Shown here in pieces: positions 5,735 through 22,860 of a stretch of DNA of 30,227 nucleotides. The position numbers and the translations under genes were made by a program. The notes beneath the pieces were generated by a model. That model did not search any database. It saw only the letters and a list, made by a program, of their open reading frames with translations, and had not been told where the DNA came from. Numbering within the stretch: position 1 is the first letter of the stretch; each line of letters starts with the position of its first letter. Origin of the DNA: a virus; the IMG/VR virus record IMGVR_UViG_3300033551_000028, positions 1-30,227 of that record; one strand, written 5' to 3'.

Positions 5735-6379
5735 CTATTCATATCGGAACTGCACGACAGGCTTGGCCCCCTGCCCAGGCACGCCAGCTTGAATCACGAA
5801 TGTGACCGAGGGCGATCGAATGCTCTCCAGCCCCTCGGTATCGAGGGCGCTTACGGTGAGCGCCAGTGTCCCACGGTCCACCGGTATGGTCACACGGCGG
5901 CTCACGACTGTACCGCCAGTCGGGCGTGAGGCTGGGAAGTTGAAAACCGTCTCGCTCCCCCCATCGACACGAACGTAGAGACGAACGAACGCGAGATCGG
6001 TGAGCGCGGTTGAACAGGGCGGCGACGGCTGCCCGGCGCAATTGGAGGTTGTCGGCTCAAGGTAGCTCACATTCACCGTGGTCTGCGCCGTCTGCTTGGC
6101 CGGTACAACAAGGGGATTACACATCCCGCCGACGCAGACCCACGCGCCCGTCGGGGCCGCGGCGTGATACGGCAGCGTGAACAGCAGCGGCGGGGTCTGC
6201 GTGCCGGTCTGAAACGAGGTCCCGTCATTGTAGCCCCCGGCCCACGCTACACGCGCCCCGCTTGCCCATGTTACTGTGAACGTGGCGCCTGTGGCGCTGA
6301 GCGTCGGCCCGGTGACGACATTCTGAGCCTCCGCGAGCGCAGGGAGTAGCAAGCAGAGCACGACCAGCCAGCGAGTCAT
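5735..6379 (-). CDS. Sec-exported FN3-like protein B
   Basis: The product is a 214-residue protein with a clear signal peptide (MTRWLVVLCLLLPALAEA, then Gln). Two beta-sandwich-like regions follow, about residues 20-100 and 105-205; the second has fibronectin-III-like spacing ending VTFVIQ. Cys residues occur in pairs (VCVGGMC; NCAG with PPC), consistent with disulfides outside the cytoplasm. The start ATG at 6379 directly follows the lysozyme stop (TAGATG). The C-terminal PGQGAKPVVQFRYE motif is shared with the protein encoded at 5356-5721. No known enzyme motif is seen. Confidence 0.75.
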   Translation of the reverse strand: MTRWLVVLCLLLPALAEAQNVVTGPTLSATGATFTVTWASGARVAWAGGYNDGTSFQTGTQTPPLLFTLPYHAAAPTGAWVCVGGMCNPLVVPAKQTAQTTVNVSYLEPTTSNCAGQPSPPCSTALTDLAFVRLYVRVDGGSETVFNFPASRPTGGTVVSRRVTIPVDRGTLALTVSALDTEGLESIRSPSVTFVIQAGVPGQGAKPVVQFRYE

Positions 6380-6812: not shown

Positions 6813-7139
6813 TTACAGCACAGGCTTCGTGATGATATCGGTCACCACCATACGTCGTTCAGCCTCAAACACACGCCCGCTGTTATCGACCGCCTGGAGC
6901 TCAAGCATATAGGTCTGCCCAGGCACGCCGCCTTCTATCAGCTGCGTGACGACCGATGTGCCGACGATTGAGAGCGCCGTGAAGGTGAGGTCAGTCGTCA
7001 CATCTGTGTTGTCCGCCTCAAGCACCGCAAGGAAGGTGGCGGTCGCGAGGTACTGCCCCGTCGCCAGCTCGTGTTTGAAATCCACTGCCCAGTCAATCAC
7101 CTCCGTTGACTGTTTTGTCATCGGCGGTCCGACGATCAT
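6813..7139 (-). CDS. Small Ig-like phage structural protein, adaptor-like
   Basis: The product is a 108-residue beta-rich protein: DWAVDFKHELATGQYL, then TQLIEGGVPGQTYMLELQAVDNSGRVFEAERRMVV. This pattern (declared span, then a 'GG-GQ-Y-L-(4)-D-SGR' strand pair) recurs in small phage proteins encoded beside fibre genes and thought to be tail-fibre adaptors or Ig-like decoration. It begins in an ATGA overlap with the fibre gene at 7136-9130. No signal peptide is present, unlike the genes downstream. Assignment is by pattern only. Confidence 0.6.
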   Translation of the reverse strand: MIVGPPMTKQSTEVIDWAVDFKHELATGQYLATATFLAVLEADNTDVTTDLTFTALSIVGTSVVTQLIEGGVPGQTYMLELQAVDNSGRVFEAERRMVVTDIITKPVL

Positions 7140-9130
7140 GACGCACCCCCTCGTCTGGGTCGAATGTTGGCGGCCGACCGGCTGTACGTATTGCGACGGG
7201 CTGGCGCGGTGTAGGTGTTGCTCCGATCTCGCGCCGGGTACTGATTAATCCCCATACTAATGAACGGCACCTCGGTCCCAGTTGTGAGGGTCGCCACGGC
7301 GACAAGACTCAGGCTGCTGGACCCGATCAGCGCGATGGCCGTCTCAAGCGTGGCCGCGGTCGCGAGACTAAGGTCGGAGGCCCCGACAAGCGCAATGGCG
7401 GTGTCAAGCGTTGCGGTCGCGATGACCAGGCTGAGGCTGGAGGATCCGATAAGTGGGATCGCGGTCTCAAGCGTTGCGGCCGTGACGACCAGGCTGAGGC
7501 TGCTGGCCCCGACCAGCGAAATCGCGGTCTCGAGCGTCGTCGCTGTGACGACCAGGCTCAGGTTGGAGGACCCGACGAGCGGGATTGCCGTCTCAAGCGT
7601 GGTGGCGGTGGCGGTGATGACGAGTGCGAGTGGCGGCGCGTCAAGCGTGAGGTCGGCGCCGTCGCCACCGGCTGCATTAACGACGGCCGCGCCCACGGCC
7701 TCTGCCGTGGTCAGGGCGAAGGCGCCGCTCGTGCTCTGGACGGTAGCGAGGCCCGTGCTCTCCGCGGCGACGCCTGCCACGGCCGAGCTGGTGGCCCCCG
7801 TGGTGGCATCTCCGAGGGCGGCAGCATCGGCCCCGATGATCGCGGCAGCGGCACCAGCCACCACCGTGTCAGCGGTGGACGCGGCGCCTGTGGTCGCGAT
7901 CGCCGCGCCGGTCGCATCGACCACGGCCAAGCCGAAGGACTGGCCATCGGCCTCGATAACGGCGCCCGCGGCAGCGTCCTCGCCAGCGGCGTCGACAACC
8001 GCCGCCCCCACGGAACTACCGTCAGCCGCGATAACGGTGGCGGGCACGGCGTCGACAACGGCCGCCCCCGTCGCGCTGCCGTCAGCCGGGATGACGCTCG
8101 CGGCCATGGAGTAGACGGCCGCGGCCGTGCTGAAGTAGTTGACGTGCCAGTAGTCAACGTGAAAGTAGCCGTTGACGTAGGCGCCCGCGGTGGCCGCCCC
8201 CTGCCCGGCCTGGCCGATCGCCAGCGCTTGCGTTGTGGCGATGGTGCTGGTGGCCACCCCGACGATGCTGTCGCCCTGGGCGAGCGCCAGGGCTTCAATG
8301 CGCGGGCCCGCCGCTTGGCCATCGGCGGCGACCACTGCGGCCCCCATTGAGGCGCCGCTCGAGGCTAGGACCCATGCCGCCGCGCCATCGACTGTCGCCG
8401 CTCCCGTGGAGGCACCACTGGCGAACCAGAGCGCGACGCCCGCAGCGCTGACGACGGCCGCCCCGGTTGACGATCCATCAGCCTCAACGACGTTCGCCGG
8501 CAGGGTGATCGTGTCGCTGAACTCGATCCAGGGCCGGAAGGTGGTCCCGGCCTCCGTCTCGTTCTCGGCGAGGTCGCCGCCGGTGGCCGTGCCACCCCAG
8601 CGTAGCGAACCGTTGTGCCGATTGGTGCCACCGCCTGAGGTCGGCAGGCCGCCCAACCCCACCTCGACGACGATCCGATCGTTCACTTCAATATCAACTG
8701 TGGCAATGGCGATGCTGGCGAAGCTGGTGTTGCGCATCGCCGTCGTCGCCTCAGTACCCCGGCGCGTGATGGCAAGCAGGGTTTCCTTCTGAGTCGTCCC
8801 GGCCTGATCGACAACGTAAATCTTGATTGTGAGCTGCAGGTTGTTACTGACGTGCAGCTCGGAGGCTTGCAGTTGAGCCTTGACGGTCCCGGAAAGCTGC
8901 TGTGCCCCGAGGGGATCGCTGACGTACTGGCGATGCAACGAGTTGACGTCGGCGATGTGATCCGCTGAGTCGGGGGCGTTGGCCACATCCGTAAGCGTCG
9001 AGGCGTCCGGCGTGGTGATCAGGAGGCGACACCTAATCGGCGTCGCCTCGATATGCCCCCAGTCCGTGCCCGAGATCGTCGGCGAGACCGCCGCCGCCTC
9101 GGTCAGCGGGAAATAGAACCGTGTCGCCAT
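7136..9130 (-). CDS. Repetitive tail fibre or surface protein 2 (module A)
   Basis: The product is a 664-residue protein. Residues 1-215 are a jelly-roll-like domain of a type seen in phage structural proteins (SLHRQYVSDPL, DRIVVEVGLGG, NETEAGTTFRPWIEFSD). Residues about 216-480 are degenerate repeats of a 14-residue DGSSTGAAVVDAAG-like unit, interrupted near 312-332 by an aromatic pentapeptide repeat. Residues about 490-625 are six copies of a roughly 20-residue LETAIPLVGSSSLSLVV unit. The C-terminus is Arg/Tyr/Asn-rich. It is the last large gene of tail module A and shares two repeat types with the 9574-11811 fibre, so both probably build one fibre or surface assembly. Receptor binding is inferred. 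Confidence 0.72.
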   Translation of the reverse strand: MATRFYFPLTEAAAVSPTISGTDWGHIEATPIRCRLLITTPDASTLTDVANAPDSADHIADVNSLHRQYVSDPLGAQQLSGTVKAQLQASELHVSNNLQLTIKIYVVDQAGTTQKETLLAITRRGTEATTAMRNTSFASIAIATVDIEVNDRIVVEVGLGGLPTSGGGTNRHNGSLRWGGTATGGDLAENETEAGTTFRPWIEFSDTITLPANVVEADGSSTGAAVVSAAGVALWFASGASTGAATVDGAAAWVLASSGASMGAAVVAADGQAAGPRIEALALAQGDSIVGVATSTIATTQALAIGQAGQGAATAGAYVNGYFHVDYWHVNYFSTAAAVYSMAASVIPADGSATGAAVVDAVPATVIAADGSSVGAAVVDAAGEDAAAGAVIEADGQSFGLAVVDATGAAIATTGAASTADTVVAGAAAAIIGADAAALGDATTGATSSAVAGVAAESTGLATVQSTSGAFALTTAEAVGAAVVNAAGGDGADLTLDAPPLALVITATATTLETAIPLVGSSNLSLVVTATTLETAISLVGASSLSLVVTAATLETAIPLIGSSSLSLVIATATLDTAIALVGASDLSLATAATLETAIALIGSSSLSLVAVATLTTGTEVPFISMGINQYPARDRSNTYTAPARRNTYSRSAANIRPRRGGAS
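7260..7650 (-). repeat. About six tandem 57-60 bp coding repeats
   Basis: Each unit encodes a variant of T-L-E-T-A-I-P-L-(V/I)-G-(S/A)-S-x-L-S-L-V. The units differ by scattered substitutions, and the pitch varies between about 19 and 21 residues. The same motif (LTTAIPL) recurs in degenerate form in the 9574-11811 gene. Confidence 0.75.
8126..8190 (-). repeat. Aromatic pentapeptide repeat, copy in fibre 2
   Basis: On the minus strand this encodes AYVNG-YFHVD-YWHVN-YFSTA, an aromatic pair every five residues. The 15-mer GACGTGCCAGTAGTC at 8141-8155 recurs exactly at 10855-10869 in the other fibre gene. Confidence 0.75.
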
Positions 9131-9131
9131 C

Positions 9132-9560
9132 TTACCCTTCGGTGACGATCGCGGTGGTCGTCTTCAGCCTCGGGATCACGCCTGTGGCCATCGTGATGTT
9201 GGGCGTGACCGTCCCCGACCACAGCATCTTGTTCGTCACACCAGTGCCGATTGAAAAATGCGTGATCGCCGCTCCCGGTGTGGCCCCGCACTCCGGGAAA
9301 TCCAGGTTGGCCACGAGGAAGACGGTGTCGTTGGTCACCGTGAAGCCGCCCGAGGTGCGCGCCACCGTCTGCCGGGCGTAGTTGGTGTACGCGGTCTCGT
9401 TCGTCGCCTGCGTCCCGGCCTCGCCCGGGTCGCTGGTGTGCAGGGCGAAGGTGAGCGTGGTGGCAGGCGTCGAGCCATCGTCCTGCGCCAGGTCGGCGAT
9501 GGCCACGGCTTGGAAGATGAGCTTCAGGAAATCGTTACCGAAGGCTGTGGGCTTGCTCAT
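9132..9560 (-). CDS. 'LHTSDPG' phage tail accessory protein, module A copy
   Basis: The product is a 142-residue protein of a common phage structural family, often annotated as tail fibre or hypothetical. It is recognised by TLTFALHTSDPGEAGT followed by TAYTNYARQTV and ITHFSIG. The start ATG at 9560 has GGAGG 5 bases upstream; the in-frame start at 9632 would lie deep in the preceding gene. A diverged paralogue (LHTADP, SYARVARAPL, VTHFGIWDAATAGN) is encoded at 16529-16939. In both cases the gene follows one whose product ends in the same C-terminal domain. It probably sits at the tail tip or at the base of the side fibres, but this is inferred. Confidence 0.75.
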   Translation of the reverse strand: MSKPTAFGNDFLKLIFQAVAIADLAQDDGSTPATTLTFALHTSDPGEAGTQATNETAYTNYARQTVARTSGGFTVTNDTVFLVANLDFPECGATPGAAITHFSIGTGVTNKMLWSGTVTPNITMATGVIPRLKTTTAIVTEG

Positions 9561-9573
9561 GTCGTCCTCCTCA

Positions 9574-11811
9574 TCAGGCCAGCACCGCCCAGCTGACCTC
9601 AGCATCGGCGGGGGCGGCATCGGCGAACTCAACGGTGAACTGCGTGGTCGACTGTGCAGCCACGCGGTACGTGGTGAGCCACGTCGGCGTGACGAGCACG
9701 CGATAGGTGATCGGGAAGATGCCGGTCACGACCTGGGTGGTCGCCGCCGCCGTGACCGTCGCCCGTCCGCGGCGCTGCACCCCGCTGGCGAGCTGCGGAT
9801 CGAGGATGCGCAGCGCGAGCGTGTACACGTCCCGGATGTCCACGTCCCGCGCGAACAACTCCGGCAGGCTCAGGAGATCCGTGAAGTTCCGCTGGACGCA
9901 GTACGCGCTCGGGATGCCTTGCGGCACGATGCCGTTGTAGTTGGAGACGAGCTCGATGACGACGGGCGGCGTGATCGAGAGGACCGCGTTGACGCGATAC
10001 CAGAGCATCGACTCGCCCTGGAACTTGAAGAACTGGCCGGCCTCGAGGAGCACGACCTCCTCGGAGGTGATGCCGTCGAGCTGCACGTGGCTCGGCTCCC
10101 CCTCGACGACCATCGCGGTGCCGCTGCGGATCTGCCCATCGGGGGGCGGGATGAGATCGGTGAGCGTGGCCGTGACGACCAGCGCGAGGGTGAGGCTTCC
10201 TACCAGCGGGATCTCGGTGGTGAGCGTGCCGGTGGCCGTGGCCCGCAGCGTCGCCGAGGCGAGGAGCGGGACGGTGCCGCCCGTGAGACTGGCCGTCGCC
10301 GAGAGCGTCATGGTGCTGGGCGTGGCGGCCAGTCGTATCGCCGTCGTGAGCGGCGCGGCGGCCGTCAGGGTCAGACTCGGCGCTGCCGCCAGCGGGATGG
10401 CGGTGTCAAGTGACGCCGTGGCCGTCAGGACCAGGGCACTGGATCCGACGAGTGGGATCTCGGTGGTCAGGTCACCCGTGGCGGTAACGGCCAGCGTGAT
10501 GGCCGCCATGAGCGGCCCCTCGCCGCCGGTCAGATCCGCGGTCGCGGTGAGGGCCAGGGTCGCGGCGGCCTCGAGGGCGATCTCCGTGGTCAGCTCGGCC
10601 GTGGAGAGGAGCCGCAGCGTGCTAGCCGGGGCCACCAGGGGGATGCCGGTGGTGAGGGTCGCCACGGCATTGATCTCGAGCCGCGCCGAGGCTGTCGGCA
10701 GAATGCCCGTGGTGAGGTCACCGGTGGCCGTGACGGTCAGGGTCGCGTTCGCCGCCAGCACGCCGACCGGAGCGGCGGCCCCGCCGAGCCAGAAGGCAAG
10801 GAGGCTGCGGCCGCCGCCCGTGGCCGCGGGGGTGCCCGCGATGCCCCAGTAGTCGACGTGCCAGTAGTCAGTGTGGAAGTAGCCGGAGCGGAAGTAGCCA
10901 GCCTCATAGGCTTCATCGAAGAAGCCCGGCGCCGAGGCGAGGACCTCGAGAACGACTGAGGACTCGAGGGCGATGGCCGTCGTGAGGTCTGCCGTCGCCG
11001 TCAGCGTGGCCGCGGCGGCGCCATCCAGCGGGATCTCCGTCGTGAGCGTGCCAGCCGCCGTGAGGCTGAGCGTGGCGCTGCCGTCGAGCACGGCGCCGAG
11101 GCTGACCAGGGAGGCGATAGAGATGGCGACGAAGGCCGTGTCGTCCGACCCGGCCGTGTAGCCGATCGTCGGGTCACTGGTGCTCGAGGCGGTCTGCCGA
11201 TCGACGCGGAACACGAAGGCCCCGGCGTCGACGGCGAGCACTGACGTCATCCCGGCCAGCGGGGTGAGGTCCGTCGTGTTGGGCCGGCCGGAATAGATGG
11301 CGCAGACGGCGATGGCCTCGCGGCCGCCGACCTGGAGCGTGCGCTGGGGGTCGGCGACATTCTGCTCGAGGCTGTCGGTGTCGAGCACCTCGGTGTTGCC
11401 GGGTCCGGTGAAGGACAACGAGACGAACTGGATGTCGTCGGTGGTGCTGCCGCACGTGGCGCTGACGGTCTGGGGGCCGGTGGGGGGAGTCCCGAGGAAC
11501 CACCACTCGGCAGCGCCGGGCTCGGTGGCGGTGTCGGTGGCGCGCACCATGCGGGCCATAGGCGTGCCGCCGTAGGTGATGGCCGTGACGTGATCGGTGA
11601 CGGTCGTGCCGTGGATGACGGCGACGAGGATGCCGCGCGGTGAGCCGACCGGGGTATGCGTCCACGTGTGCGGCGAGGCGGTCCCCGTGCGCAGTGAGGC
11701 CACCGCCGCGTCGAACGCCAGCGGGACGGTGGCCCCCGCTGGCGCCCAGTAGGCATCATGCCAGTAATCTGGATGCCAGTACCGAGCCTGCCAGTATTGT
11801 TGCGTCGCCAC
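9574..11811 (-). CDS. Repetitive tail fibre protein 1 with tail-module C-terminal domain (module A)
   Basis: The product is a 745-residue mosaic. Residues 1-24 are an aromatic pentapeptide repeat (QYWQARYWHPDYWHDAYW). Residues about 28-245 form a jelly-roll-like domain (LVAVIHG, ATEPGAAEWWFLG, IQFVSLSF). Residues 295-325 hold a second aromatic repeat, flanked on both sides by degenerate 18-residue LTTAIPL repeats. Residues about 556-745 are a globular C-terminal domain clearly homologous to the whole protein at 16954-17535 (shared IRSGxAMV, PELxxxDxDIRDxYTxAxRI, PTWLTT and EVSWAVLA-like end). The start is GTG at 11811 with TTGAGG 7 bases upstream. The fusion of repeats onto a domain that stands alone elsewhere suggests a fibre that grew by fusion. 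Confidence 0.78.
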   Translation of the reverse strand: MATQQYWQARYWHPDYWHDAYWAPAGATVPLAFDAAVASLRTGTASPHTWTHTPVGSPRGILVAVIHGTTVTDHVTAITYGGTPMARMVRATDTATEPGAAEWWFLGTPPTGPQTVSATCGSTTDDIQFVSLSFTGPGNTEVLDTDSLEQNVADPQRTLQVGGREAIAVCAIYSGRPNTTDLTPLAGMTSVLAVDAGAFVFRVDRQTASSTSDPTIGYTAGSDDTAFVAISIASLVSLGAVLDGSATLSLTAAGTLTTEIPLDGAAAATLTATADLTTAIALESSVVLEVLASAPGFFDEAYEAGYFRSGYFHTDYWHVDYWGIAGTPAATGGGRSLLAFWLGGAAAPVGVLAANATLTVTATGDLTTGILPTASARLEINAVATLTTGIPLVAPASTLRLLSTAELTTEIALEAAATLALTATADLTGGEGPLMAAITLAVTATGDLTTEIPLVGSSALVLTATASLDTAIPLAAAPSLTLTAAAPLTTAIRLAATPSTMTLSATASLTGGTVPLLASATLRATATGTLTTEIPLVGSLTLALVVTATLTDLIPPPDGQIRSGTAMVVEGEPSHVQLDGITSEEVVLLEAGQFFKFQGESMLWYRVNAVLSITPPVVIELVSNYNGIVPQGIPSAYCVQRNFTDLLSLPELFARDVDIRDVYTLALRILDPQLASGVQRRGRATVTAAATTQVVTGIFPITYRVLVTPTWLTTYRVAAQSTTQFTVEFADAAPADAEVSWAVLA
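10150..10770 (-). repeat. Degenerate 18-residue LTTAIPL coding repeats in fibre 1
   Basis: About eleven diverged units of the form A-x-L-T-T-x-I-P-L-x(5)-L-x-L-x-A-T run through this part of the gene, with two or three more at about 10935-11095. The related array at 7260-7650 in fibre 2 is more regular. Confidence 0.65.
10845..10920 (-). repeat. Aromatic pentapeptide repeat, internal copy in fibre 1
   Basis: The minus strand encodes AYEAG-YFRSG-YFHTD-YWHVD-YWGIA. The unit length is 15 bp, and GACGTGCCAGTAGTC (10855-10869) is identical to 8141-8155. Confidence 0.75.
11742..11811 (-). repeat. Aromatic pentapeptide repeat at fibre 1 N-terminus
   Basis: Four 15-bp units encode Tyr-Trp at residues 6-7, 11-12, 16-17 and 21-22, each followed by a polar triplet (QAR, HPD, HDA, APA). 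Confidence 0.75.
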
Positions 11812-11834
11812 ATCAGAGCCTCAAGGCGGTCCCT

Positions 11835-12422
11835 TTAGGCGCTCGGCGTAATCGTCATGGCCGAGCGGTTGTTGCTCCCGTCGATCGTGGCCGCGATCCG
11901 TGTGCTGACGCCGTTCGGCGTGGCGAGGGTGGCGCCGCCGTTGCTCGTGACGCCCGCCAGGGCCGCCAGCATGACCGACAGGGCTTGCTGGATCGTGTAG
12001 CTCCCCTGCGTCTCGATCACCTTGGTGGCGACGCCGGCCGCGATATCCGCCGGGGCCGTGCCAGCGGCAGCGGTGGCCTCGACCTGGAGGAGATCGGCCC
12101 CAAAGAGGGAGTCCCAGACGTTGGCCGGCACGACGAGGAAGTCCTCCCAGACCGGTAGGGAGCCCGTCTCATGCACCGCGAGCCGCATTAGGCCGAGGGT
12201 ATTCGTGTCCGTCGCATCGAGGAGGACTTCGTAATAGCCGTTTTCCTCGTGCGTCAGCGTCTGGGCCGCGGCTTTCTGGGCCCAGTCGCCGCCATTCTTT
12301 TTGAGCCGGATGTCCGGCTGGGTGATGGTGAGGGCCCCCTCGACGGTGTTGCCATCCGTGCTGTCGAGAAACGGCCCGATCGGGACGGACACCGAGGTGG
12401 ACTGCTTGAGCCATCGCGCCAT
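11835..12422 (-). CDS. Phage structural accessory protein, 'TDTNTLG' type (module A)
   Basis: The product is a 195-residue protein. Its N-terminal beta domain (SVSVPIGPFLDSTDGNTVEG, then ITQPDIRLKKNGGDW, GYYEVLLDATDTNTLG, SLPVWEDFLVVPANVWDSLFG) is a pattern frequent in phage structural proteins of unknown exact role. The C-terminal half is Ala-rich, then ends in a short polar segment. The start ATG at 12422 has AAGGAG 6 bases upstream and lies two bases after the preceding stop. It has the same general layout as the protein at 15934-16515 (a span of variable value, then a strand ending in a 'YYEV/YRFDVPDA' turn), so a distant relationship is possible. It is probably a minor virion or baseplate component. 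Confidence 0.65.
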   Translation of the reverse strand: MARWLKQSTSVSVPIGPFLDSTDGNTVEGALTITQPDIRLKKNGGDWAQKAAAQTLTHEENGYYEVLLDATDTNTLGLMRLAVHETGSLPVWEDFLVVPANVWDSLFGADLLQVEATAAAGTAPADIAAGVATKVIETQGSYTIQQALSVMLAALAGVTSNGGATLATPNGVSTRIAATIDGSNNRSAMTITPSA

Positions 12423-12424
12423 CG

Positions 12425-13141
12425 TTATCTCCTTCTCCGTAGATACATCGTCCGACGCGCCTGAGCGGGCAGTAACGGCTTGAGCGCCACCATGGCGATG
12501 AGCCACTCTCCAGCAGCCGCGCCGCTATGTGTCCACGTTGCGGCGACCGCACCGGCACTCGCTAGCACGCGGTCTTCTGTTGCAATCACCGGGTCGTAGG
12601 GGCTGGTGTTGGGCGGGAGGCGGCCAGTGAAACTGGTTCCTGCCACTTCATCCGCGTTGGTTATGACGGGGCCCGTTTCCGCGAGAACCCCAAAAATATA
12701 GGTGTTGTTGACGGTAGTAGTGTCCGTACCGCTTGTGAGGGCATTCGCGCCAGTGCCGGGCGCCGTTAATGGCTGAATTGCGCTGGCATCGACCACATCG
12801 GAGGTGGCGCAGCCCGAGACCTCGTGGTAGGCCAACACTCGACCCGCCGTGGCCGACGAGAACGTAACGGTTGGATGATAGTTCGCGCCTCCGGTGATGT
12901 TCGCCACCACCCACACCGCGAGGCGGAAGGCCCCTGCGTTGTCGGTGCCGATCACGACAGGAGATCCATAGGTGTTGCTAAACGTGTCGGCGACCGTCGC
13001 CGTGATCGCTGCGCCATTCCACCGTGCGGCGAAGACGAGGCATCGACCGCTCGTGAGCGTGTTCGACGACGCATAGGTGATCGTCGTGCTGCTCCCGGCC
13101 CCGTTGTTCCAGTTGCCTAAGACGAAGGCTGGATCGGCCAT
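12425..13141 (-). CDS. Jelly-roll-like virion surface protein
   Basis: The product is a 238-residue beta-rich protein without a signal peptide. Its pattern (SSNTLTSGRCLVFAARWNG, VADTFSNTYG, RLAVWVVANITGGANYHPTVTF, VLAYHEVSGC, then WTHSGAAAGEWLIAMVALKP) resembles the N-terminal domains of the fibres at 9574-11811 and 18137-21661. These share a hydrophobic 'C-L-V' strand, a W-x-x-A/S strand and a late 'T-H-x-x-F/W-x-x-A' strand. It therefore looks like a free-standing copy of a fibre domain, and its position next to module A supports a surface role. The C-terminus is Arg-rich. Confidence 0.6.
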   Translation of the reverse strand: MADPAFVLGNWNNGAGSSTTITYASSNTLTSGRCLVFAARWNGAAITATVADTFSNTYGSPVVIGTDNAGAFRLAVWVVANITGGANYHPTVTFSSATAGRVLAYHEVSGCATSDVVDASAIQPLTAPGTGANALTSGTDTTTVNNTYIFGVLAETGPVITNADEVAGTSFTGRLPPNTSPYDPVIATEDRVLASAGAVAATWTHSGAAAGEWLIAMVALKPLLPAQARRTMYLRRRR

Positions 13142-13153
13142 TCTTCCCGTCCC

Positions 13154-14344
13154 CTATCTCGGCGTCACGGTGAGGCCCGTCGGGGGCGCTGGGGCCGCCC
13201 CGGCGGCCGGCGTGTTGGCCCAGGTCGCGCTGAAGGTGCTGTTGAGCACGCCCTGCGCTGTGCTCACGGCCCGAACCGCACACGTGACGATGGGCAATGG
13301 CGCGGTGACATAGGAGGCCGTCGTAACGTTGGCGGCCACGGTCGTTACCAGCACCCCGTTTCCGGGCGTGCACCCGCTCCCCTCGCAACACCAGAGCTCG
13401 GTGCCTTGCTCGGCCGGCGAGACGTTCGTGTCGGTCCACGCGAGGTTCGCGTTCTGCGTGCCCAGCGTCGTTGCGGACGCCTCGTTGCTGTAGCCGCTCT
13501 GGGCCACGCCGTTGGTGCTCTGCACGCGAAAGAACCGAGTGGTGGAGGCCGAGAAGCCGGAGACCGTGAAGGACGTCCCGGAGGCCGAGCCGATGCTGCT
13601 GAACCCGGTGCCACCACCCGAAGACGACTGCTCGATCAGATACGCCGTCGCCCTCGCCCCAGCAGTCCATGCCAACTGAATCTGCGACGTGCTGAGGGCG
13701 CTCGCCGTCAGACCAGTCGGCGGGTCCGGCGGAGTCAGGTCGACATCCCCGCCCTCCCACGAGGCGAAGGACATCGTGTCCCGGAACATCACCATCCCGG
13801 GCGCCCCGCTCGTCCATGGCGACGAGGCGTCCGTCAAGGAGCCTGACGTGACGGTCCCCGCCACCCCGTTCCGGGTCACCGAGAGCACGGTGGTCGAGGT
13901 GCCGACGGCGCTGAGTTCATACACGGCGCCGGTCGCAGGCACGCCCGGGAATGTACCGCTGGCGATGTAGGCGCCGCCCGAGGCCCCGTTCCCCTTCACG
14001 AGATCCCAGTTGTTCGCGGCGCTATACACCTTGAGGTTGTAGCCGCTGCGCACCGACGCCGAGCCACGCACCATCGGTCCCGCATCCGCGTCACCGGGGT
14101 TGCCCATGGTGACGCGCGAGAACTGTGCCGCCCCGAACGACGACGCGGTATAGACGGCGATGTGATCCAGACTGGACGACGTCCCGACTGCGTCCGTGCC
14201 ATTGGCTCGGAACGGCGCGTAGAGCGCATGATTCGTCCACCCCGACGCCAGTGGATTCTCGGTGCGCGCGAACGTGTCCTGCACCGTGAGCGCCCAAGCC
14301 GGCGATGCCATGAGGAGGATGGCGAGGATTAGCCAACCAGCCAT
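13154..14344 (-). CDS. Sec-exported LamG-like / FN3 protein
   Basis: The product is a 396-residue exported protein with signal peptide MAGWLILAILLMASPAWA. Residues about 20-205 look like a concanavalin/LamG-type beta sandwich (DTFARTENPLASGWTNH, DADAGPMVRGSASV, YNLKVYS, GAVYELSAVG, GAPGMVMFRD). A fibronectin-III domain follows (PPDPPTGLTASALSTSQIQL, about 207-295), then a second FN3-like region with a Cys pair. The end has another PPTGLTVTP start of an FN3 unit cut short by the stop. The start at 14344 is preferred because GAGAGGG sits 7 bases upstream; 14350 is also possible. It overlaps the preceding gene by 16 bases. Carbohydrate binding is plausible for such folds but unproven here. Confidence 0.72.
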   Translation of the reverse strand: MAGWLILAILLMASPAWALTVQDTFARTENPLASGWTNHALYAPFRANGTDAVGTSSSLDHIAVYTASSFGAAQFSRVTMGNPGDADAGPMVRGSASVRSGYNLKVYSAANNWDLVKGNGASGGAYIASGTFPGVPATGAVYELSAVGTSTTVLSVTRNGVAGTVTSGSLTDASSPWTSGAPGMVMFRDTMSFASWEGGDVDLTPPDPPTGLTASALSTSQIQLAWTAGARATAYLIEQSSSGGGTGFSSIGSASGTSFTVSGFSASTTRFFRVQSTNGVAQSGYSNEASATTLGTQNANLAWTDTNVSPAEQGTELWCCEGSGCTPGNGVLVTTVAANVTTASYVTAPLPIVTCAVRAVSTAQGVLNSTFSATWANTPAAGAAPAPPTGLTVTPR

Positions 14345-15336
14345 TGCCATACCCTCTCGACGTAAGCCCACGTCGGCAGTCGGAGACTCGCCGGTGTGCA
14401 GCCCACGCCACGACATCCGCGCAGATTCGTCGGCGCGTTCAGTGGAACGGCGGGGGTGCCGCCCTCAAACTCGGTGGCGATCGGAATACGCTCGCTCGAG
14501 CCGAGATTGTGACCAAAGAGCAGGTGCGAGAGTCGGATGGTGCACGTCCCGGTCACGGGTGTCCCATCAGGCCACGTGCGGGGGTCGCGGTACTCATGGT
14601 GCACATCATGTTCGCCACTGAAGGGAGTGCCATCGCCATTCAGGGGTGGGCCGTTCGGCCAGAGCCAGGTGTTGGCCGTGGAGCTGTACGACACCCCCGT
14701 CGAGAGGCGCGTGAGGATGATCGTGGCCGAGCTGACGCCAGTCCAGTACGCCCCGTTGTAGTACACCTCCCAGCGCCACCACTCGTTCTCAAACATCCTG
14801 AGCGTCATCCCTTGCACCCCGAAGAGATTGCCGCCCCACGTCACCGTCGAGGCATCGGGGAATCCGCCGCTGGAACTCCAGTAGATCTTGAGCTGCACCC
14901 ACTTGTGCTGGGCGCACCGGTCATTCGCCGAGTTCCACCGGTAGAAGCGCCACCCGAACCGACCATTCAGCAGGGGGCTGGCTTGAGTGCCGATCATTGG
15001 ACGGAAGCTGACGGTCATTGCCATATTCTCGGTCGCGGGAAGCTGCATCACGGGCAGCCCGTTCGGACCCGTCGCTACAACCGGAGGGCCGGCGTTGGTA
15101 TACACAAGCTTGAACCCACCAGATGATTCTCCGCAGAGCAACGTGTCGCTTGGGTCCTGGTCCGTCTCTCGATAGAGCTGTGAAGAGATCGTCGTCCAGC
15201 CGGTGGCCCGCCACGTGCGATGACAGAACAACTTGCCCTGGGATGCGAGCGTATTCGCCGCCGCCTCACGCGGGGGCGCCGCCTCAGCAAGAGCCGGAAC
15301 GAGACACAGCAGGATAGATCCAATGAGACGCCTCAT
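14329..15336 (-). CDS. Sec-exported Trp-rich protein, possible glycan-binding fold
   Basis: The product is a 335-residue protein with signal peptide MRRLIGSILLCLVPALAEA. The mature part is rich in Trp and Tyr (WRFYRWNSANDRCAQHKWVQLKIYW, FENEWWRWEVYYNGAYW), a pattern of beta-sandwich carbohydrate-active or carbohydrate-binding proteins such as alginate-lyase/LamG-like folds, but no catalytic signature is certain. Cys residues (LFCHRTW, LLCGES, GCRGVGC) suggest disulfides. The ATG at 15336 forms an ATGA overlap with the upstream stop, which fixes the start. It lies in a run of three exported genes between tail modules B and A. Confidence 0.7.
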   Translation of the reverse strand: MRRLIGSILLCLVPALAEAAPPREAAANTLASQGKLFCHRTWRATGWTTISSQLYRETDQDPSDTLLCGESSGGFKLVYTNAGPPVVATGPNGLPVMQLPATENMAMTVSFRPMIGTQASPLLNGRFGWRFYRWNSANDRCAQHKWVQLKIYWSSSGGFPDASTVTWGGNLFGVQGMTLRMFENEWWRWEVYYNGAYWTGVSSATIILTRLSTGVSYSSTANTWLWPNGPPLNGDGTPFSGEHDVHHEYRDPRTWPDGTPVTGTCTIRLSHLLFGHNLGSSERIPIATEFEGGTPAVPLNAPTNLRGCRGVGCTPASLRLPTWAYVERVWQWLVG

Positions 15337-15974
15337 GGCCAGCACCCCGTGTCAGTCGTGTATGTGCTATCGGGCGACCCCGTAGCCTGCGCCTTGGCGC
15401 GGTAGCACGAGGGCCCAGGGTTGACGTCCAAGAAGCTGATCAGCGTCCCGGTCCCCGTCACCCCCGGGATCGAAGTCAGCAGCGCGAAGTTGGAGCAGGA
15501 CGACGCCGGGGCGATGATCGAGCAGCGCTCGATGATGAAGTTCGTCTCGGCGGTCCCGCCCGACGTAGGGGAGGCATCGGTGAATTGGATCTCAAGGTTC
15601 GGGCCGGTGAAGGTCGCCGTGACCGCGTGCGTCTGACTCATCGTGACGACGCAGGTCCCGATGCCACCGCATCCGGCGCTGCCACTCCAGCCGGTGAAGG
15701 TCGAAGGCGCTGTCGGGGTCGCCGTGAGCGTGACCGGCAGTCCTCGATTGTAGGAGTGCGAGCAATCGCCGCCGCAGTCGATCCCGACTCCGCTCACGGT
15801 GCCGAAGCCGGTGCCCACCTTCTGGACCGTCAACGGCATCAGGAGCACCGGGGGCGTGAACGGGTCAGGGAACGGCTCCGGCTGCGCCAGCACCGGCGCA
15901 GTCCAGAGCGTCGCCATGGCCAGCACGGCCAGACTAACCCGGGTCCACACCGATGACAGGCTCGGCGGCCGCAT
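15333..15974 (-). CDS. Sec-exported InlB-type B-repeat protein
   Basis: The product is a protein of about 213 residues with an N-terminal export signal (hydrophobic VSLAVLAMATLWTAPVLA, then Gln). One bacterial surface repeat of the InlB B-repeat type follows (about residues 52-125), with VGTGFGTVSG, CGGDCSHSYNRGLPVTLTATP, FTGWSG and VTATF. A final FN3-like segment has Cys pairs (IERCS, SSCS, SCYR, GCWP). The start is uncertain: ATG 15974, ATG 16013 and a GTG near 15945 all allow the signal, and 15974 overlaps the upstream gene by 41 bases. B-repeats are known from bacterial surface proteins and are unusual in phage late operons. Confidence 0.7.
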   Translation of the reverse strand: MRPPSLSSVWTRVSLAVLAMATLWTAPVLAQPEPFPDPFTPPVLLMPLTVQKVGTGFGTVSGVGIDCGGDCSHSYNRGLPVTLTATPTAPSTFTGWSGSAGCGGIGTCVVTMSQTHAVTATFTGPNLEIQFTDASPTSGGTAETNFIIERCSIIAPASSCSNFALLTSIPGVTGTGTLISFLDVNPGPSCYRAKAQATGSPDSTYTTDTGCWP

Positions 15975-16515
15975 TCGTTGTGATCGTCCCCGTCCAGGCT
16001 TCAGTGAAGTCATCTTCCTTCTTAACGCTCAGTGTGGTCGCGGTGAGCGCCCAGCGGTTGCGCAAGAACCGCAGCGCGTTGAGCATCGAGCGTGCCGGGA
16101 CGCTGGCGGTGATCGCCGTCCAGTCCCGGAGCAGCGTCTGATCAGCCCACCACCCGGCCGTGAGCAGTCGATAGCCGACATCGAAGGGCAACGCGCCCGT
16201 GACACGGATCTGCAGCCCGACCCAGTCCGCGCCGGCCGCGAACATGGCGTCGGGGACATCGAAGCGGTAGCGCCCCTGATAGTTCGTTGAGGAGATCTGA
16301 AACCAACCACCCAAAGCCCAGGCGCTATTGCCCGAGCCCAGGGCGAGCGTGCTGATCTGCACCGGGCTGGCCGCACCCTGGCGGTAGTAATAGGCCGTCA
16401 CGCTGCCGAAGGCGACGCCGGTGACCGGGCTATTGTCCACCGCGCTGCGCAGCAATACCTCGATGCTCAGCTCCGTCGCGCCCGTGACGACATCGCCGTA
16501 GAACTTGTCAGCCAT
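15934..16515 (-). CDS. Phage tail accessory protein (module B)
   Basis: The product is a 193-residue protein. It begins MADKFYGDVVTGATELSIEV, then VTAYYYRQGAASPVQIS and GRYRFDVPDAMFAAGADWVGLQIRV, a beta domain seen in many phage virion proteins near fibre genes. It ends with a helix and a beta pair (MLNALRFLRNRWALTATTLSVKKEDDFTEAWTGTI), a common C-terminal motif of the same group. It is the third gene of tail module B, after the domain protein at 16954 and the LHTADP protein at 16529. The exact structural position is unknown; a distal tail or fibre-attachment role is inferred from neighbours. Confidence 0.7.
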   Translation of the reverse strand: MADKFYGDVVTGATELSIEVLLRSAVDNSPVTGVAFGSVTAYYYRQGAASPVQISTLALGSGNSAWALGGWFQISSTNYQGRYRFDVPDAMFAAGADWVGLQIRVTGALPFDVGYRLLTAGWWADQTLLRDWTAITASVPARSMLNALRFLRNRWALTATTLSVKKEDDFTEAWTGTITTNAAAEPVIGVDPG

Positions 16516-16528
16516 CGTCGTTACCCAA

Positions 16529-16939
16529 CTAGGCCCAGGTCACAGATATGGCTCCGATAGCAAAACTGGGAGCCGGGTCGAGGTTGTTGATCGTCTTCGG
16601 CGTGGCCAGCGCGCCGTGGCAGATGAGGTTGCCGGCCGTGGCGGCATCCCAGATGCCGAAGTGCGTGACGACGCCCCAGTTGGCCGTGGGCGCCGGGAAG
16701 GTCACGGCCGCGGCATTGGTGGTCACGCCGTCCGTGGCACTCGCCGCCGTCCAGTTCGCATCGAGCGGCGCCCGGGCGACACGGGCATAGCTGCCGCCCG
16801 TGACCTCGGTGCCGGTGCCGGCATCCGTGGGATCCGCCGTGTGCAGGGAGATCCACAGGCCCGTTGGCTTCGTGAAGCTGGCGGTGCGAAACACGTGCGC
16901 GCGGAGCTGCACTTCCAGGTAATCGCTCATGTTGGCCAT
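16529..16939 (-). CDS. 'LHTADP' phage tail accessory protein, module B copy
   Basis: The product is a 136-residue protein of the same family as that encoded at 9132-9560, with LWISLHTADPTDAGTGTEVTGGSYARVARAPL followed by VVTHFGIWDAATAGNLICHGALATPKTIN; this copy is closer to the family consensus. The start ATG at 16939 has GAGGAGGGG 7 bases upstream. It lies between the module B domain protein and the 15934-16515 gene, matching the order found in module A. A virion role is supported by the family and position; the exact function is not known. Confidence 0.78.
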   Translation of the reverse strand: MANMSDYLEVQLRAHVFRTASFTKPTGLWISLHTADPTDAGTGTEVTGGSYARVARAPLDANWTAASATDGVTTNAAAVTFPAPTANWGVVTHFGIWDAATAGNLICHGALATPKTINNLDPAPSFAIGAISVTWA

Positions 16940-16953
16940 GATCTAGCCCCTCC

Positions 16954-17535
16954 TCATGCGGCTAAGACAGCCCAGGTCACGGCCGCCCCCGCGGGCGCCG
17001 CCGTGCCAAAGTCCAGGACGAACTGCGTGGTGGTCTTGCTCGTATCCGCCCGGACACATACCGTCGTCAGCCAGCTCGGCGTAGCCAGCACGCCGTAGGG
17101 CGGGGTGGGAAAGGTGCCGTTGACCGTGTGCGAGGTCGCCGAGGTCGTCACCGATGCCAGGCCGGATGAGAGGATGGCTCGCAGCAGCGTGGTGTCGATG
17201 ATCCGCATCGCGTGGGTGTAGATGTCCCGGATGTCCGCATCGCCCGGGGAGAGCTCCGGCAGGCCGTGCAGCGGCGTGAAGTCCCGCGCGATGATGTAGC
17301 CCGAGAGCACCCCCGCCTCGATGCTCCCGGAGTAGTCGTCGGTCAGATCGACTACCACCGTAGGAGTAACCGAGACCACAGAGGCGATCGTGAAGAGGCC
17401 CGTGGTCGTCTCCCCGGCGAACTTGAAGAGCTGGCCTGCCGCCACGAGGGCCGCGTCGCTGGGCGCCATCCCGCTGAACGTGATGCGGTTGGGCGCGCCC
17501 GCCGTGACCATCGCCTGTCCCGATCGAATCTGCAT
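16954..17535 (-). CDS. Stand-alone tail-module domain protein (module B)
   Basis: The product is a 193-residue protein homologous along nearly its whole length to the C-terminal 190 residues of the fibre at 9574-11811. Shared landmarks are IRSGQAMV near the start, AGQLFKFAGE, PELSPGDADIRDIYTHAMRI, ATPSWLTT, TTQFVLDFGTAAPAGAAVTWAVLA at the end. The start ATG at 17535 directly follows the preceding stop (TGAATG) with GAGGG 5 bases upstream. Here the domain carries no repeats or aromatic ladder, so it may be the ancestral form. It is likely a tail-tip or fibre-base component. Confidence 0.75.
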   Translation of the reverse strand: MQIRSGQAMVTAGAPNRITFSGMAPSDAALVAAGQLFKFAGETTTGLFTIASVVSVTPTVVVDLTDDYSGSIEAGVLSGYIIARDFTPLHGLPELSPGDADIRDIYTHAMRIIDTTLLRAILSSGLASVTTSATSHTVNGTFPTPPYGVLATPSWLTTVCVRADTSKTTTQFVLDFGTAAPAGAAVTWAVLAA

Positions 17536-17769
17536 TCATGCCCTCGCCCGATGTACCATGTCGCACCACTCGCGATTGCCGTCGCCACCCGCTTCGGTGG
17601 ACCCGCTCAGGTAGCAATGGGGCCGGACCAGCGCGTCGTCCGCGCCCTCCATCCCAGGCTGATGCGACGCGCACGGCTGCGGAACGTAGGTCCCCCACTC
17701 GCGACCCGCCCAGCAGTCCGGGCAGAGCGACGGCAGCACGACCTCTGTATCCTCGAGATGGTCTGTCAT
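17536..17769 (-). CDS. Small Cys/His-rich protein, unknown
   Basis: The product is a 77-residue protein with Cys-Pro-Asp-Cys near residue 16 and later Cys/His residues (QPCASHQPG, VRPHCYLSG, EWCDMVH), suggesting a zinc-binding fold. The ATG at 17769 overlaps the preceding stop as ATGA, and the stop abuts the next start, so its place in the operon is well supported. No family is recognised. A longer frame in phase reaches back to 18105, but that part competes with the better supported gene at 17766-18137. Confidence 0.65.
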   Translation of the reverse strand: MTDHLEDTEVVLPSLCPDCWAGREWGTYVPQPCASHQPGMEGADDALVRPHCYLSGSTEAGGDGNREWCDMVHRARA

Positions 17770-18137
17770 GGTCGCCTCAGCCGGTCGCGGACGGCGGCCG
17801 GCGCTGCGGGCAACAGGGCCTGCGCTCGTGTCCTCAACGCCTGCCGCTCCTTGAGGGGCACGTCGGGGAGTTGCCCCAGCGGCCGGGCCATCGCCCGCTC
17901 CATGGCTGACTCCGCGCTGTAGCCCATCTCCCGATAGCGAAGCCACGCCGCGTCGTCGTCGTGGGGCGTGGTCAGGTGGCCGTCCGCCGTGAGGAAGAGG
18001 AGCGGCAGCTCGATCTCCGGCCGCGCGGCGATCACCGCACCGTAGGGCTCGGCGGGCGGCTGCCAGCCCTTGGGCGCGTCCTGCTCGATGAGGGTATGCA
18101 CCCACCCGTCGGGCCCGGCGATCACGCGCATGAGCAT
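17766..18137 (-). CDS. Conserved-looking phage protein, unknown
   Basis: The product is a 123-residue protein: a beta-like N-terminal half (VIAGPDGWVHTLIEQDAPKG, PEIELPLLFLTADGHLTTP) and a helical Arg/Ala-rich C-terminal half (WLRYREMGYSAESAMERAM, KERQALRTRAQALL). The start ATG at 18137 overlaps the stop of the large fibre gene by one base (TGATG), and its stop overlaps the next start as ATGA. No family is recognised. Its place directly after a fibre gene would suit a fibre chaperone or assembly factor, but nothing in the sequence proves this. Confidence 0.6.
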   Translation of the reverse strand: MLMRVIAGPDGWVHTLIEQDAPKGWQPPAEPYGAVIAARPEIELPLLFLTADGHLTTPHDDDAAWLRYREMGYSAESAMERAMARPLGQLPDVPLKERQALRTRAQALLPAAPAAVRDRLRRP

Positions 18138-21100
18138 CAGGCGCTCCTCGAGAGCAGCATCAGCCGCGAGTTGACGACGGTGAGCCGCATCGTGTAGCCG
18201 GAGGCCCCGCCGATGAGTCCGGTCAGGCAGAAGTGGTGCGTGCGCGCGGCCCCGGGGGCGAGGTTGAAGAAGAAGATGTCGGTATCGCCCTCGGCCGGGT
18301 CGAGCGCTGGGAGTACCACGCTGAACTGCTGCAGGATCGGACTCGTCACCAGCGTGCCGTAGCGGAACCGCACCGTCGCCGTGTGCTCATTGATGTTGCT
18401 GCCGCCCGTACACTCCGCGCGGAGAAAGATCTTCCACCACAGGCCGATGGTGTCGGTGTTGCGCAGCGTGGTCACGGCTGACGCGTACGTGGCCAGCACC
18501 ACCTCGGCCGGGGCCGTGTTATCTGGATTCGTCCGCTGGAGGTTCAGGGACGTGAACGACACCATGCGAATGATGTTCAGGTCCTGGATGTGATCGGCCA
18601 CGAGCTGCTGCACGTCGCCGCTGCTCGAGACCTCGAGGGGTGGCACGGAGCCGCCTTGGCGGCCGATGCGGACGAAGGGCGCCCCGGCCTGCGCGCGGAA
18701 CACGGACTGCCCAGCCCCGTCGAAGACGTCCAGGGCGTCCTGCCGGAGCTCGACACGCGCCCCGGTGTCGGCCGTGGCGATCTTCCCGGTGCCGACGAGG
18801 ATCTGGGCGGCGAGGCTCCCGGCCGTCATCTTGCTGACCGACAGGTCGGTGATGTGGGCGTTGCCCACGACCGCGTTGGCGATCTGGGCGGCCCCCGTGA
18901 TCACGGCTTGGTCGGCGATGAGTTGGGACGCCCCGATGGTGCCGGCCAGGATGTCCGAGCCATGCGTCAGGGCCTTGCCCCAGTTGACGATGAGGCCGGT
19001 GCCCCCGACGTAGACCGCCATCACCGCCCTGTCGCTGCCGAGGGCCTCCGCGATGTCGGTGGTCGATCGGAACTGCGTCTCGCCCAGCACGTAGTAGATG
19101 AACACCACGCCGCCGCCGACCGGGAACGGGGCGGCGAGCGTCTGCATCGTGATCTCGCCGGAGTTCATGAAGCCGGATGGCGTGGTCGCGACGAGCCGGT
19201 AGAAGTATTGCGTCTCCGGCTCGAGGCCCGTGTCGACGTAGGTCGCCGGCACGGTGGCGCCGAACGAGGCCACGAGGAGGCCCGCACCGCCGGTGGCGAG
19301 TGACACTTCCCCCGACGCCGTGGTGCCGGCCGCGTTGGTGGCGACAAGGCGGTAGTAGTAGGTCGTGCTGGGCAGCAGGCCGGTGTCGATGTAGAGGGTC
19401 GGGACGGTCGGCCCGTAGGCGGCGATCTCCGTCAGGGCGCTGATCGGGAAGTTCGGCGTGGTCCCGCGGTAGAGCGCATGGGAGGTCGCGCCACTCCCGG
19501 CCGTCATGCCGATCGTCACGGAGCTCGCCGAGTTGACGCTGACGGCCGTGATCACTGGCGCGGTCGGCGGCGTGGGGGTACCACCCAGGTACAGGCGATA
19601 GATATGCCCCTGGTTGGAGGCGCCCTGCCGGAGCGAGGAGGCCCCGCCGAAGGTGTCCATCCAGGTGGCGCCGTCGGTGACCGTGATGTCTCGACTCTCG
19701 CCGACGACCTCCACCCGGGTCAGGCTCGCGTGCCAGGTGAAGGTCACGTTCGCCCGCTCGTTCGGGTGCAGGTTGTAGGCGAAGACATAGCCGAGGCCGC
19801 CGTACTCCCAGCAGCGCGTGCGCACGTCGCTGGACTGGTCGAGGATGTGCAGCGACTCGGCTGTATTCGCTGGCACCTCATTCAGCGCCGCCAGCTCGGT
19901 GACGAACGTCGACCGCACGCCCTCAAACCACGTCGGGCCGCCGGAGACCGTCAGGAGGGCCAGGAGGTCCTTCCGCCACTGGATCGCGTTCCCGGTGACC
20001 GTGCTGTTCGCCGTCAGGAGCGAGGGATTGGACGGGTTGAGCAGCACCGGCTCGAGCGTGGCCAGCAGGCCCGACATGGTTTCGATCTGGGCCAGCACGC
20101 GCTCCCGCTCGCTGGTCGTCCAGGCGCTCGTGTGCAGGGCGCCCTGCTGCACGCCCAGAGCCCACCACCAGACGCCGACGCAGCCCTCGGCGACGGCGGC
20201 CACCATGTGCGACCACAGCTCGGCGTTCGTGATGAACCGGGAGTTCGTGCCGAACTTGAACGCCTGCAGGACCATCATCGGGCACTTGTCATTCGCCAGC
20301 GCGTGGTAGCGCACGGCCGCGGCGGTGTGCCCGACGTCGTAGTTGGAGTAGCCGTAGGTGTTGGTGGTGCCGCCCGGCGCGGTCTCGACAGCCGCCCCGA
20401 TCGTGTACGGGTCGGCCCCGAGCCAGGTGCCCACCGTGGACTCGGCGTAGGCAATGATCGGGTCGATGAACGTGTGCCAGGACACGCCGAAGGTGGCGAG
20501 GTTCGGCATGGCCGTCGTGTACGTGGTCTGCCACGTGGCCAGGTCGGTGAGCGCGTCCTCGCGCGTCTCGTCGAAGAGGTAGACGGCGGCGGCCCGAGCC
20601 TTGCCGGCGAAGTTGAACCGGAAGTTATTGGAGTTGTCGACGACGTCGAACGGGCCGTTCGCGTCCGAGTTCGCCTGGACCGTGCCCGAGGCGCCAGCCG
20701 TCCAGTCATAGGAGGCGTTCCCAATGGCCAGCGTGTACATGTGCAGCGGGTCCAGGGCGTCGGCCAGCCGCAGCCCGTTGTCGAACGTGCCGGTGTAGAG
20801 GTTGATATAGAAGTTCAGCTTGTCCGTGAAGCGCGCGAGGTTGCGCACCACCACGTGCCCGGCCATGTCTTGACTGCCGCCAGCGCCCTCGAGGCCGCTG
20901 TCATAGATGCCGCGCACGAAGATCGGGCTGCCGTCGATGGTGACGAAGCCGGCGGCGTTGCGGCTGACCGTGACGCCCGGCGTGGGCACCGTCGGCGCCG
21001 CGGCCGGGATGATCGCCAGTTGCTTGTAGGCCACGGCGAAGGAGGCATGGGTAACGGCGGTGGTGCCCGTCGACCCCGCCGCGGCCTTGCCGCCCTTGGC

Positions 21101-21661: not shown

Positions 21662-21662
21662 C

Positions 21663-21983
21663 TTAGGGCGACGACCTCACGCTCATGCCTTCTTGGTCAC
21701 ACTTCACCGTCGCGTTGGGGGCGGCGGTCCGGTAGCTCTTGACCGTGCCGTAGATCGAGGTGACGGTGATGCACACCGTGGCGGGATCCTTGGCCATGGC
21801 CTCAACGAGCTTGCTGATATTCGTGGTCGAGCAGCCCGTCAGGGCCAGCGCCAGTGCTAGAATGGCCACGGCTCGCTGGCTCGTCGCGCTGACGACGACT
21901 GCGATGGGTTTGCACCCACAGTTATGGAGTCGTGGGGTCGGTTCGAGTCCGAGCGTCTTGAGTGCGGAGCGCCAGCGAGTCAT
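21663..21983 (-). CDS. Lipoprotein with long N-terminal leader
   Basis: The frame encodes 106 residues with a lipobox (LALALTGC) that would put the lipidated Cys near residue 51. The short mature part is CSTTNISKLVEAMAKDPATVCITVTS and a Cys-containing end. It would be anchored in the inner leaflet of the outer membrane or in the inner membrane. The ATG at 21983 makes an ATGA overlap with the peptidase gene, but then the leader before the hydrophobic core is about 35 residues (MTRWRSALKTLGLEPTPRLH and onward), long for a signal peptide. A later non-ATG start is possible. It could be a spanin subunit or an exclusion lipoprotein; no family is certain. Confidence 0.65.
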   Translation of the reverse strand: MTRWRSALKTLGLEPTPRLHNCGCKPIAVVVSATSQRAVAILALALALTGCSTTNISKLVEAMAKDPATVCITVTSIYGTVKSYRTAAPNATVKCDQEGMSVRSSP

Positions 21984-22633: not shown

Positions 22634-22836
22634 TACTTCGCCCTCGGCAGTGTGACGTTGCCGATGTAGCCCAGGACGCCGAAGACGTTGAGGAGCCAGA
22701 GCACCACCGCAATCACCACCACGATGTTGATGATGGTGAGGATCTTCGGGTCGATGTAGGGCCCGAGGTACGTGTTCGCCAGCCAGAGCAAGACCCCGAC
22801 CACGACCAGCGTGATGACCAGAGCGATCAGATTCAT
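22633..22836 (-). CDS. Small two-helix membrane protein (Thivi_2564-like), holin candidate
   Basis: The product is 67 residues, almost all hydrophobic: segments about 3-27 (LIALVITLVVVGVLLWLANTYL) and 33-56 (ILTIINIVVVIAVVLWLLN), joined by a short PYIDPK turn. It closely resembles small membrane proteins common in Gram-negative bacteria (Thivi_2564-type), whose function is unknown. In this setting, beside a peptidase and another membrane protein, a holin-like role is plausible. AGGAGG lies 10 bases upstream of the ATG at 22836. Confidence 0.7.
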   Translation of the reverse strand: MNLIALVITLVVVGVLLWLANTYLGPYIDPKILTIINIVVVIAVVLWLLNVFGVLGYIGNVTLPRAK

Positions 22837-22860
22837 GGTGTCAGGTCCTCCTGCGGGCGA

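Follow-up and report, generated by a model that had tools for sequence, protein, structure and literature searches.

The window analysed here, an entire virus record of 30,227 bases (IMG/VR record IMGVR_UViG_3300033551_000028), carries on its minus strand two gene cassettes, modules B and A, which we read as parts of a flexible side fibre. The proposed fibre is of the bead-and-rope type of phage GP4, with parts of different origin, a tip domain that occurs twice and a lambda-J-type tail tip, and we put the probability of this reading at roughly two in three. It is directly supported by the families to which the bead and adaptor proteins belong, the fold of the bead protein LHT_A, the repeats in two large proteins, the occurrence of such repeats near Gp80 genes in other phages, the homology of the two tip domains and the separate branches of the two beads; the place of the fibre on the virion is inferred, as is the binding of repeats to beads and of the tip to the cell surface. 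An initial annotation, made from the letters alone, had described a tail accessory module at 9132–17535 as duplicated in tandem. Its choice of a fibre or appendage function was sound, and it is the history of the genes that we revise.

On the minus strand, genes for the tape measure, for minor tail proteins and for a J-like protein are followed by a gene for a 1174-residue fibre, module B, several further genes, module A and a lysozyme gene. The features of the two modules, all on the minus strand, are:

16954–17535, minus: domB (module B), stand-alone tip domain of 193 residues, modelled as a small β-barrel, a helical linker and a C-terminal β-sandwich
16529–16939, minus: LHT_B (module B), Gp80-family bead protein of branch B, 136 residues; PF23140 at 159.7 bits, cut-off 27
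15934–16515, minus: accB (module B), accessory protein of 193 residues, unrelated to repA; elsewhere its homologues neighbour bead genes of branch A
9574–11811, minus: fibA (module A), 745 residues, with an N-terminal aromatic YWHxDYWH motif and domain, repeats and a C-terminal tip
10141–11082, minus: 20-residue rope repeats of fibA, residues ~244–557, 10 consensus units
9577–10140, minus: tip domain copy A, the C-terminus of fibA (residues ~558–745), 47% identical to domB
9132–9560, minus: LHT_A (module A), Gp80-family bead protein of branch A, 142 residues; PF23140 at 45.9 bits, cut-off 27
7136–9130, minus: repA (module A), candidate rope of 664 residues, with an N-terminal domain, a basic C-terminal tail and ~20-residue repeats of two types
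7271–8488, minus: repeat region of repA, with repeats of the ADGSSxGAAVV and LSLVVTATTLETAI types
6813–7139, minus: Gp77-type fibre-tail adaptor (module A), 108 residues; PF23148 at 46.4 bits, cut-off 27, and 8jou_D at E 0.0056

In the proposed fibre, LHT_A and LHT_B would be the beads, likely as dimers, and fibA and repA, with their 20-residue repeats, would be the ropes that carry them. A rope would be anchored to the virion by the Gp77-type protein. The tip domain would be fused to the rope end in fibA and supplied as a separate gene product in module B. This arrangement is modelled on fibre I of GP4, in which gp80 dimers reportedly sit on a rope protein, itself fixed to a gp77 ring of 15-fold symmetry.

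The bead proteins belong to the Gp80 family

The two LHTxDP proteins carry the motif as LHTSDP in LHT_A and LHTADP in LHT_B; for LHT_A, an ATG start at 9560 is likelier than a TTG at 9632. The initial annotation had called them clear paralogues. Kinship is borne out, since both exceed the cut-off of PF23140, the Gp80 family that takes its name from fibre I of podophage GP4, and their pairwise alignment scores 83 against a maximum of 64 in 300 shuffles, but they are distant members of the family: a search among the window's proteins gives 30% identity over 99 residues (E 8e-4), the tree alignment ~24%, and each falls in its own branch with relatives from other phages.

LHT_B matches chain 8jou_a by sequence (phmmer, E 1.8e-10). 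An AlphaFold model of LHT_A, built with 46 sequences, has a mean predicted local distance difference test score (pLDDT) of 91.5, and its best match in the PDB is the same chain, from the entry 'Fiber I and fiber-tail-adaptor of phage GP4' (Z 10.6, 4.2 Å, 119 residues; Foldseek E 6.4e-5, probability 1.00). The next matches are neck chains of phages Sf14 (9c39) and Bas63 (9mt4) with Z of ~10, and none of the remainder exceeds 7. As modelled, LHT_A thus shares the fold of GP4 gp80, and by analogy with GP4 both LHT_A and LHT_B probably form beads, as dimers.

These matches also bear on a different assignment, in which the LHTxDP proteins decorate the head or neck, with the repeat proteins as unconnected adhesins encoded nearby. 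PHROG 240 bears the label 'head protein', the gene is called 'head protein' or lies a short way behind the capsid gene in many records, and the fold is common to the Sf14 and Bas63 neck chains. The best structural match, 8jou_a, nevertheless comes from a fibre, and independent proteins would hardly account for the link to repeat proteins described below, which is specific to one period and to the downstream side. We consider head or neck decoration quite unlikely.

An adaptor and candidate rope proteins with 20-residue repeats

Module A has the gene order of a GP4-type fibre I cassette, with bead, putative rope and Gp77 adaptor in a row. Four other phages, BcepIL02, Lacusarx, Mae-JY04 and DSL-LC06, likewise have a larger protein encoded between Gp80 and Gp77 genes, and Pfam confirms the Gp77 assignment. 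In BcepIL02 the protein between the Gp80 and Gp77 homologues, gp56, itself has a period of 20 residues (z 7.3).

The period-20 signal reaches z 6.4 in fibA and z 7.4 in repA. As a search query fibA returned no matches, and repA returned a single contig, matched in the N-terminal domain only; in locus L018 a homologue of this domain immediately follows the bead gene. The aromatic motif YWHxDYWH occurs twice in fibA and once in repA, and the remaining genes of the fetched loci lack it. We had considered it as a general bead-binding signal and rejected that idea because it is confined to the window among those loci. A C-terminal R-x-aromatic tail, tried as a mark of rope proteins, was found in 18/93 against 104/1618 and was dropped. 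Searches of the PDB with the rope candidates of BcepIL02, BcepMigl and Itty13 gave nothing credible.

The repeats are linked to Gp80 genes well beyond this window. Counting at z > 5, with representatives under 85% identity, a period-20 protein lies up to six genes downstream of 46 of 79 Gp80 genes and upstream of 4 of 93. On the same loci, seven other periods gave 0–3 of 79 and shuffled sequences 0 of 79. Both bead branches show the link (A, 25/41; B, 21/38). In a scan of periods 8–60 at z > 6, period 20 was present in 35/189 within three genes downstream and in 23/584 far away, and counted per gene at z > 5 it was found in 52 of 97 near Gp80 and in 5 of 564 near distant anchors, which are mostly non-fibre genes and depend on one another. 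The period was thus selected on the same data that were then counted, and it is the specificity controls that favour the link. Of 18 named records whose gene calls had been deposited, 11 have a period-20 neighbour at the laxer z of 3.5; these records are only partly independent, most being among the scanned loci already.

The counts also speak to the view that the repeat proteins are ordinary fibre shafts, whose period of 20 comes from common β-structure and would be expected near any tail-fibre gene. Fibre genes do cluster, and the make-up of the distant-anchor control, given above, leaves room for such an effect. The asymmetry between downstream and upstream (46/79 against 4/93), however, arises within the same structural neighbourhoods, and we regard ordinary shafts as unlikely. 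In the bead-and-rope reading, the 20-residue repeats would be the segments that bind the beads.

A proposed tip domain present twice

The initial annotation had noted one domain in two copies with shared landmarks, and its coordinates and motifs hold. The domB protein and the C-terminus of fibA are identical at 89 of 191 positions (47%; 121 of 191 positive; BLASTP E 2e-47), and their alignment score of 422 lies far above that of shuffled sequences (mean 34, SD 5.5), so the copies are homologous. Both contain QIRSG.AMV, PEL....DIRD.YT, TP.WLTT and V.WAVLA. As had also been proposed, the module A copy forms the C-terminus of the 745-residue repeat fibre. At the DNA level the copies retain 66% identity over ~330 bases (E 8e-15), and each ends ~14 bases ahead of a bead gene. 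Their fourfold-degenerate third positions agree at 18 of 47 sites, with 19.6 expected from composition. Synonymous sites are therefore saturated, and because agreement is no better than chance we take the copies to be old.

Relatives of the tip domain were sought with queries of one or two sequences, which makes each search weak. In phages none was found beyond one sub-threshold match to a Klebsiella phage tail fibre (E 0.2), and in viral contigs only the second contig that overlaps the window was recovered. Genome contigs, the fetched Gp80 loci and 50 whole records yielded none, the empty result for the whole records being uninformative. With no relatives found, ancient duplication and two acquisitions are both possible histories for the domain.

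The AlphaFold model of domB is of low confidence (pLDDT 62.5). Its N-terminal half is a small barrel that many unrelated proteins match. For its C-terminal half, the Pam1 tailspike (7eea) offers a similar fold in its own C-terminal domain, with Z 7.4 and 2.2 Å over 67 residues, a score in the chance range; Foldseek gives this pair a probability of 1.00 but an E of 0.034. The location at the fibre C-terminus and this weak tailspike match suggest that the domain is a tip that may bind the cell surface or a receptor.

Strength of the bead-and-rope reading

Several observations weigh against the reading set out above. Module B has no adjoining adaptor or rope and hence lacks the organisation of a fibre I cassette; the repeat proteins lie 7 and 9 genes downstream of its bead. 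A recognisable Gp77 was found near only 24 of 178 Gp80 genes, a rough count made with our own profile, which included one wrong seed (L013, unsupported by Pfam). Searching with the adaptor sequence of GP4 recovered relatives only. The identification of BcepIL02 gp56 as the counterpart of the GP4 rope is an analogy drawn from gene position, and the tailspike likeness of the tip has the low model confidence and chance-range score already given.

The repeat link has its own weaknesses. The first motif searches, with two regular expressions, gave p-values of 0.11 and 0.012. Period 20 was picked by scanning periods 8–60 on the very loci that were then counted, and across five countings the thresholds (z > 6, z > 5, z > 3.5), the windows (1–3, 1–4 or 1–6 genes) and the method of repeat detection varied. 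Gene calls in the loci came from a home-made tiling. No period-20 neighbour accompanies 33 of the 79 Gp80 genes or 7 of the 18 named records, including Lacusarx and Itty13 despite a conserved order with a larger protein after the bead. A bead gene flanked by two repeat-protein genes was seen in this window and at no other locus.

Two cassettes of probably different origin

The initial annotation had proposed that one module was copied in tandem and then specialised, with two host ranges or two stacked fibre layers as a possible outcome. The repeated gene order supports such a history, as do the homologous tip domains and LHTxDP proteins of the two modules. In the repeated three-gene order, a tip domain followed by an LHTxDP gene does recur, but the third genes correspond in position only: accB aligned to repA scores no better than shuffled sequence, and the two are unrelated. 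Copying in tandem would leave corresponding genes as each other's closest relatives, a pattern that only the tip-domain pair fits.

The beads fall in two separate, old and fully supported branches in trees of 124 and of 28 sequences. Their nearest relatives in viral contigs are 76% (L018) and 74% (L099) identical. When LHT_A and LHT_B were forced together, the log-likelihood of the careful tree of 28 sequences dropped by 164.6 (p-AU, the approximately unbiased test, 1.3e-47). These 28 sequences are close relatives picked by hand afterwards, with long branches excluded, and the quick tree of 124 sequences, which was run first, gave a drop of 90.7 and a p-AU of 0.065 for the same constraint, which is not significant. 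A further point against separate origins is that A and B themselves served as the queries for collecting relatives, a design that samples both groups densely. Two dense groups are therefore expected, and the informative part is that each window bead lies inside its own group. We quote both p-values, and our conclusion leans on the branch structure and the identities.

Neighbouring genes have been shuffled between cassettes, because homologues of accB sit near branch-A beads in L034–L036, L038 and L039. Taken with the bead trees and the unrelated third genes, this shuffling leads us not to accept a duplicated module. That the entire module was duplicated and its copies then diverged is very improbable, even with sister beads not formally excluded by the 124-sequence test: the beads lie in separate branches, each near the beads of other phages, the third genes are unrelated and the tip domain is old. 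By the bead trees the LHTxDP genes probably entered independently, an outcome that the initial annotation had itself set against its proposal. Most likely, then, the two modules arose separately as cassettes that have the tip domain in common, and are not one module copied.

A second history deserves more weight, namely an ancient duplication of tip plus bead in this lineage, after which one bead was swapped for a distant homologue, leaving the tips as true paralogues and the beads not. It differs from our preferred reading in history only and implies the same function. The tip domain was found only here, in two copies; both copies end ~14 bases ahead of a bead gene; and the 66% DNA identity persists in part of the domain. 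The saturated synonymous sites, on the other hand, give no sign of recency, and the lack of relatives may reflect the weak searches. We treat this history as possible, though with less than even odds.

Multiple Gp80 matches occurred in 5 of the 50 records searched, one of the five with its second match below the cut-off. Locus L147 (10001–16326) contains a B bead and an A bead in the order of the window, with a 1006-residue period-20 protein ahead of the A bead.

Neighbouring genes

A second contig (L003/L098) matches the window over 13459–27535 at 99.99% identity, which makes an assembly error in module B unlikely; this support covers module B only, and module A has none. Upstream of module B, the gene for the 1174-residue fibre (18137–21661) has weak matches to tail-fibre profiles. 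The phage lysozyme gene (PF00959, 6380–6811) immediately follows the adaptor gene, and a 294-residue open reading frame at 1149–2033 on the minus strand was judged by eye to be a candidate YqaJ-type exonuclease.

Four genes within the tail operon (15333–15926, 14329–15345, 13154–14344 and 5735–6379) have N-termini that, read by eye, resemble signal peptides. An InlB B-repeat-like domain (PF18998) is present in one of them and an fn3 domain in one. The fn3 protein has homologues that adjoin Gp80 genes in L034, L023 and L101, and the L034 homologue also has period-20 repeats. The genes between the modules had been described as exported cargo. Some do have signal-peptide-like starts, but because the fn3-protein homologues adjoin Gp80 genes, genes with such starts may be parts of the appendage rather than cargo.

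Comparison with other phage appendages

The closest known system is fibre I of the Ralstonia podophage GP4 (PDB 8JOU; Zheng et al. 2023, PMID 37660940), which has the same Gp80 bead and Gp77 adaptor families and provides the fold match for LHT_A. Unlike GP4, the window has beads of two branches, one of them encoded between two repeat proteins, together with a tip on one rope and a lambda-J-type tail. The Burkholderia phage BcepIL02 encodes a Gp80 homologue, a 20-residue-period protein and a Gp77 homologue in the same order (gp55-gp56-gp57), but it has a single bead gene, and its rope candidate, of 285 residues, is without the N-terminal domains and the tip seen in the window.

The Sf14 (9C39) and Bas63 connector (9MT4) structures contain chains with the LHT_A fold at Z ~10, with an identity in the structural alignments of only 15–18%. 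In Shigella phage Sf14, the neck whiskers are dimers of two proteins (gp30/gp31), one of which threads both whiskers (PMC11821841). A search for literature on Bas63 found none.

In the Alishewanella phage LSH1, gp34-gp36 form a three-gene appendage module in which the fibril matches 8JOU_g and the proposed anchor has an Ig fold (PMC13243795). The LSH1 payload is a β-helix protein, and a tip domain like domB is not described there (PMC13243795). The C-terminal domain of the cyanophage Pam1 tailspike (7EEA) may share the fold of the C-terminal half of the tip, with 24% identity over 67 residues; it resembles only that half, and the model confidence is low. Our literature search found nothing on such 20-residue repeats, but the GP4 paper was outside its coverage, so an earlier description is possible.

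Implications

In our reading, an account based on duplication is replaced by one of mosaic assembly, in which the tip domain is the only shared part. A broader proposal is that the repeats are a general bead-binding ruler, with Gp80 beads threaded across many phages, the number of repeats setting the number of beads, and tips and beads swapped on a common rope; we offer this generalisation tentatively and lean against it at present. If the link between Gp80 genes and period-20 repeats is true, many genes now annotated as 'head protein' or 'hypothetical' beside alanine-rich repeat genes would become recognisable as belonging to one kind of appendage, and the setting of fibre length by repeat number would be a directly testable idea.

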